Positions 52,821 through 58,769 of a stretch of 64,000 bases of DNA are shown one piece after another; the stretch's first letter is position 1, and every line of letters begins with the position of its first letter. Position numbers and translations under genes: made by a program. The stretch covers positions 62,001 through 126,000 of the forward strand of contig JAPLYU010000001.1 in NCBI GenBank assembly GCA_026395405.1. Reading direction: 5' to 3'. The notes under the pieces were generated by a model. It was not told the DNA's origin and made no database searches. It saw only the letters and a list, made by a program, of their open reading frames with translations. Origin of the DNA: Candidatus Saccharimonadota bacterium. Its GTDB lineage: Bacteria; Patescibacteriota; Saccharimonadia; Saccharimonadales; Saccharimonadaceae.

Positions 52821-53084
52821 TTAAATGTTGACGAAAAGCATTACTTCGTTGTCGCGGACAGTGACAATACCATTGCTGACATTGAAAACTATCGGTTCGG
52901 ATGAAGTTTCAATAATAATTTCACCGGGGCTGAGGATAGAAAAAAAGTCAGCGTGTGCAGGCAGAATATCGAATTTTCCGACTCTATTAGTCGCTGTTAC
53001 GGCCTCGGCGTCACCTTCGTAATATACATTGAAAGGGGCGCGGGCGATGACCTTCAGTTTTTCATTAGTTTGCGGTAGTGCCAT
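52821..53084 (-). CDS. F1 epsilon-like subunit, N-terminal domain only
   Basis: 87 residues, compared with 130-140 in usual AtpC. The beta-sandwich half is recognisable (LKVIARAPFNVYYEGDAEAVTATNRVGKFDILPAHADFF, ILSPGEIII and NGIVTVRDNEVMLFV). The C-terminal helical hairpin, which inhibits ATP hydrolysis in many enzymes, is missing. It starts two bases after beta on the same strand and is the last gene of the operon. It should still link gamma to the membrane rotor but cannot act as a brake. Confidence 0.85.
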   Translation of the reverse strand: MALPQTNEKLKVIARAPFNVYYEGDAEAVTATNRVGKFDILPAHADFFSILSPGEIIIETSSEPIVFNVSNGIVTVRDNEVMLFVNI

Positions 53085-53086
53085 GA

Positions 53087-54445
53087 TTATTTTTCCGCGG
53101 CCTCCTTGGCTTCAGGTTTTTTGGTATTAATTATTTCTTCGATACCATCCAAGGTATCTTCAATCTTAAAATACTGTCCAGGACGTCCGTTATAACGTTC
53201 GGCGACAGAGAAATCTTGAGAAAAGAATTCAATTAGTTTTTTAGCATTTTGATAATCGTTCCTATCAACCGGGGAAAGTTCATTTTCACCGACGATAGCG
53301 ATAATATTTTTCAACGAATCGTATTTTTGCATGATTGCCTGGACGCGACTAGCCAATTGATAATGGCGTTCACCAACAACCTGCGACGTCAAAAGTGAAG
53401 ATGTGGTTTGCAACAAATCAACTGCCGGGCGAATGCCGGTTTCGGCGACAGTACGAGACAGCACCAAAACAGAGTCCAATTGTTGCGAAATAGCCTGGAC
53501 GGCTGGGTCTGACAAATCGTCTGCCGGGATATATACGGCCTGGACAGAGGTGATTGTACCTTTGTCAGTCGAACTTAGCCGGTCCTGCAACCTGCGCAGT
53601 TCAGAGAATACAGCCGGAGAGTAACCACCCTCGGATGGTATTAAGCCCATATTTGTCGAAAGTTCGGTCAACGCCTGGACGTGGCGATATATATTATCTA
53701 CGAAAAACAAGATGTCGCGGCCTTCTTCATCCCGGAAATATTCTGCCGCAGTTGCCGCAGCCGGACCGACCATAGAACGGATTGCCGGTGTCGAGTCCAT
53801 TTGCCCGAAATACATCACCGTGTTTTTCAAAACGTCAGTTTCTTTTAGAGTCTGATAAAGTTCGTTACCTTCACGTATGCGCTCGCCAACTCCGCAATAT
53901 ATTGACAGGCTTTTTTCATTTTGCGTGACGTTGTGAATCATTTCCATAGTCAGGACGGTCTTGCCGACACCGGCACCACCAACAATACCGATTTTACGTC
54001 CCTTCACGAAAGGAGTCAGGAAATCGATGACTTTTATGCCGGTTTCCAACAGTTCCATTTTTTGGCTTTTTCGATAGCTTTTTACGCCACTGGATTCACT
54101 GATGGGGCGACGATTTTCGTTAATTTGTTCGCCTTTGTCAATTGGCTCGCCCAATGCATCAAAAACACGGCCGATAGTTTTTGGACCGACCGGAACGGTG
54201 ACTTTGCGATTGCTGCGGGTTACTTTCAGTCCGCAACGTAACTTTTGATTGTTAGTGATATTCAAACAAACCGCGACATTAGGCTTAAACATGTTAACTT
54301 CTAGAAATACATCGGGGACACCTTCGACTATCAGAAGTTCTTTGGCGTCGGGGCGTTCACCTAGTATCTGGACTTCAACGATAAGTCCGTTTAACGATCG
54401 GATTATTCCAACTTTGCCACCGGTATCTAGCGGGTCTGTCTTCAT
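53087..54445 (-). CDS. F1-ATPase beta-like catalytic subunit, divergent
   Basis: 452 residues. P-loop GGAGVGKT at 156-163 with K162, catalytic E188 in [10 protein letters not shown], and [21 protein letters not shown]. The set should hydrolyse ATP. Yet normally near-invariant segments are changed: RFTQAGSEVSALLGRMPSA-type sequence is [19 protein letters not shown], the TFAHLDATTVLSR segment is [14 protein letters not shown], and DELSEEDK is ENELSPVDR. This is much more divergent than a housekeeping AtpD should be, so I call it beta-like. Overlaps gamma by four bases and precedes epsilon. Confidence 0.92.
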
Positions 54446-55302
54446 GCTCTGGCTCCTTGGCGTTTCCTTTTTTCTTTCAGGCTGACCATGACTTCGCGCA
54501 TTCTGCGGTCATTTTCGGATCGTTTGGCGCGGTGATATTCCAACTGATAACCACCCAGGATTTCCGTAGCTCGTTTTTTAGCTATAGCCATAGCATTAAA
54601 TCGACTGGCTTCTTGGGCCAAGCTGGATTCCAAAATAGTCTGACTGAGCGCCAGTTTCATCATGGTGACTTCCATTTCGTCGGCAATCTCGTCTAGCGAG
54701 GGCTCAAATATGGTATTACCAGCCGTCATGACATCTTCATCGACGTCTTCGCTCATATCTTTCAAGCTGGTAATCAGGTTGATTGATCTGATCTCTTGGA
54801 CACCTAATGATACGTATTCTTCAAAATACACAATAGTTTTTGAGTAGGGTAGTATGGCGTCAATCACCGGACCAACGTCAATGTAGTTTTCAGATTCTGG
54901 AACTTTGAAAAAACGAACATATGGGATTTTGCGCTCAGTTAACTGGTTTGCCCCGTGCGATCCCAAAACGACTATATCAGTCGTAGCGCTGTCATAATCT
55001 TTTAGCATAGTTTCAATTAAATGTTGGTCAATTTCGCCGCTAAGGCCGGCTTCGGCCGTAATAATTACGAATGCTTGTTTTTTATTTTGTTCGGATTCAT
55101 CCCGATTAGTAATCCGTTTCTTTGGGTCGATTCGGATTGAACTATAGCGTTTCCATAGTAATTTGAAAAATTCGGTGGACATCTGAACCTTATTTTTGAC
55201 TTTTGCGACCTGAGTGCTGGCCAGGCTTTCAAAGACCCACGTCAAATCCTTGACCGTGGTAATCTGGATGCTGTCTTTTTCAACCGCTCTAGCGCGCCTC
55301 AT
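54442..55302 (-). CDS. F1 gamma-like subunit
   Basis: 286 residues. The two long terminal helices of gamma are evident: [26 protein letters not shown] at the start and [31 protein letters not shown] at the end. The central domain with [18 protein letters not shown] corresponds to the usual LCG(G/A)-N region, altered. It would be the rotating shaft. Overlaps alpha by 14 bases and beta by four, indicating translational coupling. Confidence 0.87.
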
Positions 55303-57269: not shown

Positions 57270-57907
57270 TGCGCTATTCCTTTTAAGAGTTCTTCTTTGT
57301 GTTCTTCCAGCATTGCTGTCAGGTAAGCAGTCTGGGTTCCTAGGTCAATATTATGGCCCAGCGTCTCAACCAGGAACGATGCTACGGCGTCAGCCAATTT
57401 TGCATTAGCCAGATTTATCAGAACTTGCTTTTCAGCTGTAACTTCCGCATTCATTGCGGCTTCCAGTTCAGCCCGGCGAGCATCAATTCTAGCCTTAAGG
57501 TCTGCTTGATGCGCATTAATATCCTTTTGGGCATCCTCGATGTTGGCTTCAGTTTGTTTACGCAGTTGTTCTAGGTCTACGCGATATCGCTTCATCTCTT
57601 CACCGACAATTTCTGAACCAAGCTTGCCAAGCCGGCTGTCCAGTTTTGCCGCTGTAGTTTTTAAATCATATTCTAACTCTGCAGCCGAATGGTTGATAAT
57701 AGTCTGGAATTTCACTTCGGACGCCTCCAGCAAATGCTCTTTCACTTCAGCTGGCAGGCGTACTGGCGGCTGGGTGTTTTTATGTGGTTTGTCTTCATCT
57801 TCACGAGGTTTGAAATGGGCATAGGCATGACGAACTGCCGTAGCCGACACCACTCCGATAAGGAAGAATGTCACCAGTAATGTTATTTGTAGAAAGCTTG
57901 CGTACAT
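57266..57907 (-). CDS. F-type b-like stator subunit
   Basis: 213 residues, longer than usual AtpF (about 160). One N-terminal membrane helix (about 5-27), then a long, highly charged coiled coil (about 60-195; KARIDARRAELEAAMNAEVT and similar). No conserved Arg in the membrane part was seen. It starts four bases after the c-like gene, and the AAGGATG ribosome site is formed by the last codons of that gene. Confidence 0.82.
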   Translation of the reverse strand: MYASFLQITLLVTFFLIGVVSATAVRHAYAHFKPREDEDKPHKNTQPPVRLPAEVKEHLLEASEVKFQTIINHSAAELEYDLKTTAAKLDSRLGKLGSEIVGEEMKRYRVDLEQLRKQTEANIEDAQKDINAHQADLKARIDARRAELEAAMNAEVTAEKQVLINLANAKLADAVASFLVETLGHNIDLGTQTAYLTAMLEEHKEELLKGIAQ

Positions 57908-57911
57908 TTTA

Positions 57912-58769
57912 TTACATCCTTGTTAACACTAAATAGATTGATATCATGCCAACGGCCAGTATTGCCATAACAAGGGCGGAAAGTTGTATTAAATCTCTGT
58001 AAATTGCCGATTGAGACATTGGATTTCGACCAACTGATATGATGCTGCTGCGGACCATTGCAAAAACAATACTGACGACAACGATGATGGTGATAATAAA
58101 TATCGCAACACTAATGACAATTGGCAAAGTACTAACCGTTTTCCCGGCCAGAGTATTTGCTACATTCTGTATAGCGGCGGGCACAATAGTTTTATCGGGT
58201 TCTTTGAAAAAATATGACACGGCGACCTGCAACGGTATTTGCCCGATAAATACTGTCTTTTTCTTGCCGTCTTTATCGGTGTAGGGTTGTTTGCTGCCGT
58301 TTCTGGTATCCAAGGCACTTTGAGCGATACCGATAACTCGGACGTTTTGATTTGCCTTCATGCCAACACCGTCAATTGGCGAAGCCGTTATTTGATCGCC
58401 ATTAGAAATCGAGCCGTTTATATCTGATACTAACACCTGCAGCACGCCATTCGTTGCCACCTCGGCGGTATTCTTTTGGCCGCTTGTTACGGACATTATT
58501 GAATTACCCGGGTTAACGACCACACCAAGTAAGTTTTCTACATTACCATTGTTAGCCGCTATGACTTCGTCATTAGTATTATTTTTAAGGCTTACGATTG
58601 AACCGATTGTCAGTTCACCTGCAGTTGTATAACTCTGCGAAAATTGTTGGGTTGCATGGACAACTACGGGTATTAATAATGCAAAAATTACGATGCTAAA
58701 AAGAGACAAGATATGCTCAAAGCCGAAATGTCTGATGCGACTCACTTTTATTAGGCCCCTTACCTTCAT
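57912..58769 (-). CDS. Membrane protein in place of subunit c: extracellular domain plus c-like hairpin lacking the carboxylate
   Basis: 285 residues when started at ATG 58769. Membrane/signal helix (about 17-38), an extracellular beta-rich domain (41-212; GSIVSLKN, LLGVVVNPG, GDQITASPIDGVGMKA), helix 214-238, a polar loop with SSIISVGRNPMSQSAIYRD (GRNP at 247-250), helix 258-281. The last 75 residues match the subunit c plan: the polar RNP loop faces the cytoplasm and both ends face out. Where c has Glu/Asp in helix two (ALAEAIA-type), this protein has ALVMAILAV (V267-M268). No other a or c gene is next to the operon. The F1 operon starts here, with an extended -10 upstream. Confidence 0.75.
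   Translation of the reverse strand: MKVRGLIKVSRIRHFGFEHILSLFSIVIFALLIPVVVHATQQFSQSYTTAGELTIGSIVSLKNNTNDEVIAANNGNVENLLGVVVNPGNSIMSVTSGQKNTAEVATNGVLQVLVSDINGSISNGDQITASPIDGVGMKANQNVRVIGIAQSALDTRNGSKQPYTDKDGKKKTVFIGQIPLQVAVSYFFKEPDKTIVPAAIQNVANTLAGKTVSTLPIVISVAIFIITIIVVVSIVFAMVRSSIISVGRNPMSQSAIYRDLIQLSALVMAILAVGMISIYLVLTRM

Follow-up and report, generated by a model that had tools for sequence, protein, structure and literature searches.

Based on the sequence, structure-prediction and comparative evidence presented here, a seven-gene operon of a Candidatus Saccharimonadota bacterium (assembly GCA_026395405.1, contig JAPLYU010000001.1) probably encodes a specialised rotary motor that runs on ATP hydrolysis at the cell surface, which derives from F-type ATP synthase and whose extracellular crown would work most likely on the adjoining Pam pilus of Candidate Phyla Radiation (CPR) bacteria. 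We analysed a window of 64,000 nucleotides of this contig (the whole stretch examined, in which position 1 is the first base), and the operon occupies positions 52821-58769 on the minus strand. Its seven coupled genes encode, in this order, a c-like rotor protein (57912..58769), a b-like peripheral stalk protein (57266..57907), the delta (OSCP) subunit (56784..57269), an alpha-like subunit (55289..56791), a gamma-like central shaft (54442..55302), a beta-like catalytic subunit (53087..54445) and a short epsilon (52821..53084). With F1Fo ATP synthase (atpBEFHAGDC; operons of the class Saccharimonadia at loci L109-L128, and of E. coli at L219) the set has in common the order of its alpha, beta, gamma, delta, epsilon and b-like subunits, the GRNP loop of subunit c and the catalytic residues. 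It differs in having no subunit a, in a c hairpin that is carboxylate-free and fused to a beta domain, in its short epsilon, and in alpha and beta subunits that lie on a separate long branch.

The gene assignments of the earlier note on this DNA, which was made from the letters alone, are confirmed by Pfam matches for alpha (PF00006, 3.8e-67), beta (PF00006, 9.9e-65), gamma (PF00231, 1.7e-25), epsilon (PF02823, 2.7e-13, residues 16-85) and the C-terminal half only of delta (PF00213, 2.1e-5). The tight spacing that it described is confirmed as well: reading along the operon, a gap of 4 bases is followed by overlaps of 4, 8, 14 and 4 bases and a gap of 2. The c-like gene has an ATG start, and a further in-frame TTG lies at 58829. 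For alpha, the GTG at 56791 is the most likely start, which gives an 8-base overlap with delta and leaves about 15 residues ahead of the conserved start of the first domain; an alternative in-frame ATG at 56860 would enlarge the overlap with delta. The b-like protein, which has no Pfam match over the cut-off (sub-threshold matches only, some of them to coiled-coil families), was recognized from its position, length and hydropathy and has the same place in relatives; it is named b-like because of its N-terminal transmembrane (TM) segment (residues 1-28, followed by a long charged stretch in the hydropathy profile) and its place in the operon. The LtaS-like gene noted earlier as the upstream flank is recovered too (PF00884, 3.8e-38; 291 bits against an NCBIfam LtaS cut-off of 970).

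The P-loops and the catalytic Glu, which the earlier note had read as intact, are so throughout the group. In 54 of 54 F1-like beta subunits both P-loop residues (Lys and Thr) are kept together with the catalytic Glu, and in 51 of 51 F1-like alpha subunits the P-loop Lys and the Arg finger, those of the window included. Judging from these residues, the F1-like head should hydrolyse ATP. The DELSEED segment is altered: it reads NELSPVD in the window's beta, and NELSPxD is common among F1-like beta subunits. Epsilon measures 82-124 aa in F1-like loci versus 138-152 aa in ordinary operons where it is recognized, and its C-terminal helical (inhibitory/regulatory) domain is accordingly missing or short; the 87 aa of the window's epsilon leave room for the beta sandwich only.

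The protein in the c position would provide the membrane rotor. According to hydropathy and a structural model, it consists of a hydrophobic helix at residues 14-32 (signal or anchor), a beta domain at about 40-190 and a two-helix hairpin at 214-284, with a GRNP loop at residues 247-250 and a second helix that lacks a carboxylate. Two alignments show the same three-part layout in its relatives, whose N-terminus is hydrophobic, whose middle domain is rich in beta strands and whose C-terminus is a helical hairpin, and GRNP is invariant in both; outside the class the G of the loop is replaced by A, S or I in some proteins, while RNP is kept. Between P+13 and P+24 of helix 2, an acidic residue was found in none of 41 c-like proteins from class loci, none of 81 from contigs of named genomes (these two sets overlap in organisms) and none of 24 from outside the class, whereas 20 of 20 ordinary c subunits (one per fetched ordinary class operon, chosen by their loop, mostly GRNPE) have Asp or Glu at P+17 or P+18. 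The window's protein has Met at P+18. The divergent copies at L107 and L108 have a Glu at the loop end of helix 1, beside an Arg.

A profile of the hairpin matched the ordinary c subunits with a best E-value of 1.4e-7 in a search of those 20 only, and hhalign paired the two with a probability of 84.7 over 28 columns. In the AlphaFold2 model of the protein (mean pLDDT 88.1), residues 192-285 superimpose on the Acetobacterium woodii c-ring 4bem (Z 7.7, 4.1 A, 78 residues), a score within the range (under about 13) that according to the search tool may be generic for long helices. The relationship to subunit c is therefore argued mainly from the loop, the operon position and the profile match, and on these grounds the protein looks c-derived. 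The earlier note had described it as no ordinary c subunit; this stands insofar as the ordinary family is absent, but the c-position protein does not appear to be an unrelated one. Residues 42-183 resemble the C-terminal fragment of phi29 gp12 (Z 13.4, 2.5 A, 112 residues), with phage head-decoration proteins ranking below it in the same structure search. Given the standard topology of c, this beta domain is predicted to face the outside. A PDB sequence search with the c-like protein returned no match, and an NCBIfam scan of 25 c-like proteins gave a single marginal, irrelevant match in one member. The crown's beta domain is also matched partially in other, often very long proteins elsewhere (open frames up to 4404 aa), and is a common module in these bacteria. 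Giant proteins neighbouring the operons were considered as further carriers of this domain, and it was not found in open reading frames longer than 400 aa at L069-L128, at L220-L239 or in the window stretch.

The absence of subunit a, first noted for the window, holds genome-wide: in the whole assembly (855,423 bases in 4 contigs, 96.99% complete), PF00119 gave 0 matches at E<=10 (control positive in 9 of 14 named genomes). Likewise, PF00137 for ordinary c gave 0 matches at E<=10 (control positive in 14 of 14). At E<=0.001, PF00006 recovered the operon's alpha and beta only and no second pair (control positive in 14 of 14), so that the operon is the sole F1 set found in the genome, and Fo was not found. 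Elsewhere in the window, at 16759-21466 on the plus strand, the arginine deiminase pathway is encoded in a row (arcA, ornithine carbamoyltransferase, arginine/ornithine antiporter and carbamate kinase), the antiporter scoring 586.6 bits, slightly below its equivalog cut-off of 591. This pathway can yield ATP by substrate-level phosphorylation and is an ATP source where no ATP synthase was found.

Matches to the c-like protein come from 90 of the 195 class genomes and from 60 of the 94 genera; PF00119 was matched in 107 of 195 genomes, of which 106 were over the cut-off. Setting aside c-like matches that stop short of query residue 275 and the subunit-a match of G158, which is below the cut-off, c-like matches that reach the hairpin occur in 88 class genomes, 70 of them also with subunit a and 18 without; a further 36 class genomes have subunit a without a c-like gene. 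Since 70 of the 88 thus carry the F1-like c alongside subunit a, the two systems are not substitutes for each other. Genomes of this kind mostly show at least four PF00006 matches. One of the 18 without a, G107, has a high-scoring ordinary-type alpha, and its subunit a may only be hidden. The earlier remark that no proton path is visible applies to the present genome, with neither subunit a nor a carboxylate, but most relatives in the class keep an ordinary a. At the level of the phylum (332 genomes searched), the c-like profile found matches in 128 genomes, many via the beta domain in giant proteins only, and PF00119 in 179.

Gene order was compared in 41 class loci (mostly better matches, with some second copies and outliers, and not a random sample) and in 20 loci outside the class chosen, also not at random, from full-length c-like matches. 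By our own reading, the order c-b-delta-alpha-gamma-beta is uninterrupted in 27 of the 41 class loci, the window included. The remainder include loci with b and delta unrecognized (L088, L089, L093, L101), with the c-like gene after epsilon (L105, L107, L108), with insertions (L091, L096) or with a contig end (L094). Outside the class, F1 genes stand beside the c-like gene in 18 of the 20 loci, mostly in the window's order, with rearrangements in L220-L223, L235 and L238; 7 of these genomes are missing from the PF00119 matches. The loci L220-L223 have two c-like genes each, flanking the F1-like genes, and PamT-like and WxLIP-like genes nearby. L081 (G049:C3:182500-202499) is reduced to c, b and alpha, with gamma and beta lost, and its genome G049 has no Pam pilin match among the matches listed; a joint loss of motor and pilus is possible there.

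Phylogenetic analysis sets the head subunits apart from those of the ordinary synthase. In unrooted trees from quick searches (75 beta and 72 alpha sequences), the F1-like rows are divided from 20 ordinary rows and E. coli by a branch of 1.30 changes per site for alpha and 1.45 for beta, each with SH-aLRT 100, and every F1-like row, whether of the class or of the wider phylum, falls on the same side of it. The window's alpha and beta therefore do not branch inside the ordinary Saccharibacteria AtpA/AtpD. The earlier note had named a lone F1 set, with a and c encoded elsewhere and with alpha and beta inside that clade, as what would speak against a distinct motor; the set is indeed the only one found, but neither a nor c turned up elsewhere in the genome, and alpha and beta lie outside the ordinary clade. 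The window's beta is on average 64% identical to F1-like beta of the class and 41% to ordinary beta. Because F1-like beta from outside the class is merely 40% identical to the window's beta, the F1-like group is old or fast-evolving.

The genes that follow the operon belong to the Pam pilus system (NF058578, NF058579, NF058581), whose PamT, PamR and pilins adjoin it. Directly next to epsilon, on the plus strand, lies the gene of a membrane-anchored bactofilin-like protein (51772..52818; PF04519 6.2e-4, below the cut-off; TM 55-87), which keeps this place in relatives, with the operon on one side and the Pam genes on the other. The following genes are all on the minus strand: PamT, a CPR-type pilus protein (50930..51667; NF058579, 276.4 bits, cut-off 240), two copies of the Pam pilin (49677..50813 and 48447..49571; NF058581, 128.3 and 143.3 bits, cut-off 55), a membrane-anchored protein with weak WxLIP similarity (47427..48443; PF06030, E 0.024, below the cut-off) and PamR, an RbmA-like pilus-system protein (46422..47411; NF058578, 330 bits, cut-off 300). 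The WxLIP-like protein has a hydrophobic N-terminus and a TM segment at 287-324, gave no match in a PDB sequence search and keeps its position next to the pilins in class loci; it is a candidate pilus chaperone or anchor. Beyond PamR lie, in conserved positions, a 2262-aa giant protein with an N-terminal hydrophobic segment (39491..46279; CBM_4_9, 2.9e-8) and a 1496-aa Kelch-repeat protein (34986..39476; PF01344, 1.4e-33). A 399-aa open frame at 33815-35014 (minus strand), with a glycine-rich N-terminal part and no family match, shares 29 bases with the 3' end of the gene for the Kelch protein and may be a frame-shifted continuation of it. Outside the window, at a distance of about 40 kb beyond the operon and on the opposite strand, lie five further tandem Pam pilins (G000:C4:160782-165650).

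This neighbourhood recurs in relatives. Pam genes follow the operon in 19 of the 41 class loci, behind the bactofilin-like gene in 18 of them. Within the class, and among the matches listed (pilin and T2SSE counts rest on the best 150 matches, the weak end not included), a Pam pilin lies on the same contig for 52 of 102 c-like genes, and within 15 kb for 49 of them; for subunit-a genes the corresponding figures are 15 of 106 and 0. Of the genomes with a Pam pilin among the matches listed, 62 of 66 carry a c-like gene. Using our own profiles, Pam genes were recovered in 47 of 80 loci from named genomes, and in 37 of 50 when the count is limited to loci with 9 kb or more of downstream sequence; these 80 loci were retrieved with a Pam-type query and are thus a biased sample. 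A type IV pilus motor was considered and rejected: T2SSE genes (PF00437) among the matches listed are not near c-like genes, with 0 of 30 contig-sharing c-like genes having one within 15 kb. In the window's own genome, PF00437 has one match among the matches listed, on another contig, and three more outside them.

From these elements we propose the following scheme. The alpha3beta3 head would hydrolyse ATP and turn gamma and epsilon, which, by analogy with subunit c, would be fixed through the conserved GRNP loop to a ring that the c-like hairpins form in the membrane. With its carboxylate lost and subunit a not found, this ring presumably carries no ions. Its outer beta domains would form an extracellular crown turning with the shaft, while b and delta would keep the head still. 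The strong and specific gene linkage suggests that in this lineage the crown most likely acts on the adjacent Pam pilus, whose rotation or assembly it would drive. This output step, the turning of a filament versus the ratcheting of its assembly, is the least certain of the mechanism. The earlier suggestion of a motor powering a surface process gains support from the conserved catalytic residues and the surface pilus neighbourhood; the rotation, the coupling to the pilus and the power itself we infer.

Several observations weigh against this scheme. The operon encodes no substitute for a that would anchor the stator in the membrane and keep b from co-rotating. The link to the pilus has exceptions, too: among the matches listed, 4 of 66 genomes with a Pam pilin have no c-like gene and 26 of 88 c-like genomes have no Pam pilin, although one of these 26, G011, has a strong pilin match outside the matches listed. 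Moreover, pilin matches occur in 100 genomes but are weak throughout in 32 of them (best E 3e-10 to 1e-3), and just two of these 32, G009 and G031, carry a c-like gene. Many loci outside the class adjoin other giant proteins instead, with the exception of L220-L223, which do have Pam-like genes. Given these loci and the 26 genomes without a listed pilin, the pilus is not the sole partner. Finally, 3 of the 41 class loci (L092, L095 and L103) have a full-length c-like gene and no F1 genes on the fetched stretch. Their genomes (G005, G110 and G136) have an F1-linked c-like copy elsewhere, and the orphan genes may encode exchangeable ring subunits with a different crown.

Tentatively, the same motor might have secretion or assembly as its output, the crown feeding or ratcheting Pam pilins into the fibre as an ATP-driven usher in a cell that lacks an outer membrane; we regard this as possible but not the likelier outcome. 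The AlphaFold2 model of the pilin at 49677..50813 (mean pLDDT 86.6) has an N-terminal Ig-like domain, and its residues 189-376 resemble the chaperone-usher pilin CsuA/B (6fqa_D; Z 7.2, 118 residues), the same C-terminal domain also resembling a CFA/I adhesin (Z 7.1). The modelled likeness to archaic chaperone-usher pilins is suggestive only, a Z near 7 not being decisive, and a Pfam scan of 43 pilins assigned no family. A possible chaperone-type membrane-anchored protein is conserved beside the pilins, and no usher was recognized among the Pam-locus proteins scanned. On the other hand, F1-like sets without Pam pilins among the matches listed exist. To our knowledge, donor-strand pilus assembly is ATP-free in known systems, which also counts against such an output.

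It is improbable, in our view, that ions are pumped by the head by way of an unrelated stator whose gene lies elsewhere and in which b or some other membrane protein replaces a. The operon itself offers no membrane partner for a stator and our searches covered known families alone, which leaves some room for such a protein; however, helix 2 of the ring protein is non-acidic in every relative checked, and no additional conserved membrane protein lies inside the F1-like operon in the class loci or the named-genome loci. Still less credible is an ordinary ATP synthase with a and c that either have diverged beyond detection or fall in the missing 3% of the genome. In its favour are b and delta, present as in a real F1Fo, the assembly, which is incomplete and in four pieces, and the 36 class genomes with a and no c-like gene. 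Yet the operon already holds a carboxylate-free c-like protein, 70 of 88 c-like genomes have an ordinary a, mostly together with at least four PF00006 matches, alpha and beta form groups of their own, and 18 c-like genomes (G107 with its ordinary-type alpha among them) show no a; a synthase with a and c elsewhere was rejected on the whole-genome family searches. That the operon is a decaying remnant of an ATP synthase, as the losses in the related locus L081 could hint, can practically be dismissed, being contradicted by the conservation of catalytic residues in every alpha and beta, by the gene order kept in most class loci and the F1 genes kept in most loci outside it, and by the retention of the F1-like set here while the ordinary synthase is absent.

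Among the known systems close in kind to the proposed surface motor are the F1-like X0 ATPases of mycoplasmas, which the earlier note had cited as precedent. The type 3 enzyme is required for the MIB-MIP antibody-cleavage system (PMC12994834, of 2026; Beven 2012, PMC3369863), an F1 head serving a surface protein system as we propose here. It comprises seven proteins with, in the parts of that paper considered, no named b, delta or c and a 12-TM protein instead (PMC12994834). The type 2 G1-ATPase of Mycoplasma mobile is the gliding motor, likewise F1-like and active at the surface, and a 2-TM protein is encoded in its gene cluster (PMC11864180). Unlike the window's set, it is a dimeric twin motor with GliD and with 12-TM and 2-TM proteins (PMC11864180). 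GliD has been hypothesized to be a b-delta fusion (PMC11864180). By contrast, none of the seven genes described here has the size or family of the 12-TM protein, and b-like and delta are present. Scores against the mycoplasma NCBIfam models are low: for beta, 388 bits with MSC_0618 (cut-off 570) and 351 with MMOB1670 (850), and for alpha, 316 bits with MMOB1660 (600) and 266 with MSC_0619 (520). The precedent therefore holds for the kind of system, F1-like and working at the surface, but not for membership of type 2 or 3: the scores are far below the curated cut-offs, and b, delta and a c-type hairpin are not described for these types in the portions of the literature considered. An N-ATPase (alternate F1Fo) was likewise rejected, TIGR03305 and TIGR03324 scoring 422.9 (cut-off 752) and 349 (cut-off 750.5), respectively.

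A non-respiratory F-ATPase near pili, with a hint of it in TM7, is already published. Omnitrophota have a second, 'symbiotic' non-respiratory F-type ATPase beside type IVa pilus genes, whose beta clusters with sequences of Ca. Saccharimonadia (TM7) (Seymour 2023, PMC10066038). The co-location with pili is shared, although those are type IVa and here they are Pam pili; the likeness is drawn from that paper's description, which in the parts considered mentions no c-like subunit (PMC10066038). None of the NCBIfam models scanned names an F1-like subunit as part of the Pam system, and no paper on the Pam pilus system was found in the literature searched. In open-licence papers (preprints excluded), among them PMC12206443, PMC12815258, PMC13059738, PMC10633639 and PMC12592800, so far as their accessible parts go, we found no description of the crowned c-like ring, of its linkage to Pam or of its CPR-wide distribution.

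As a conjecture that we hold to be rather doubtful, the c-like ring with its crown might rotate a donor-strand (chaperone-usher-like) pilus or fibre, a third rotating filament besides the flagellum and the archaellum that would then have a CPR-wide distribution. In that case the surface protein with two TM segments in the mycoplasma X0 sector might be a crowned rotor of the same kind. By hydropathy and model, the layout of the c-like protein is as described for mycoplasma MMCAP2_0577, a comparison made by description only (PMC12994834). The mycoplasma counterpart is still named 'X0' because its parts are without known homologs, and the carboxylate-free c-type hairpin with a surface domain would give F1 surface motors a concrete membrane part. 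The system is a candidate for how CPR cells act on the surface of their hosts.

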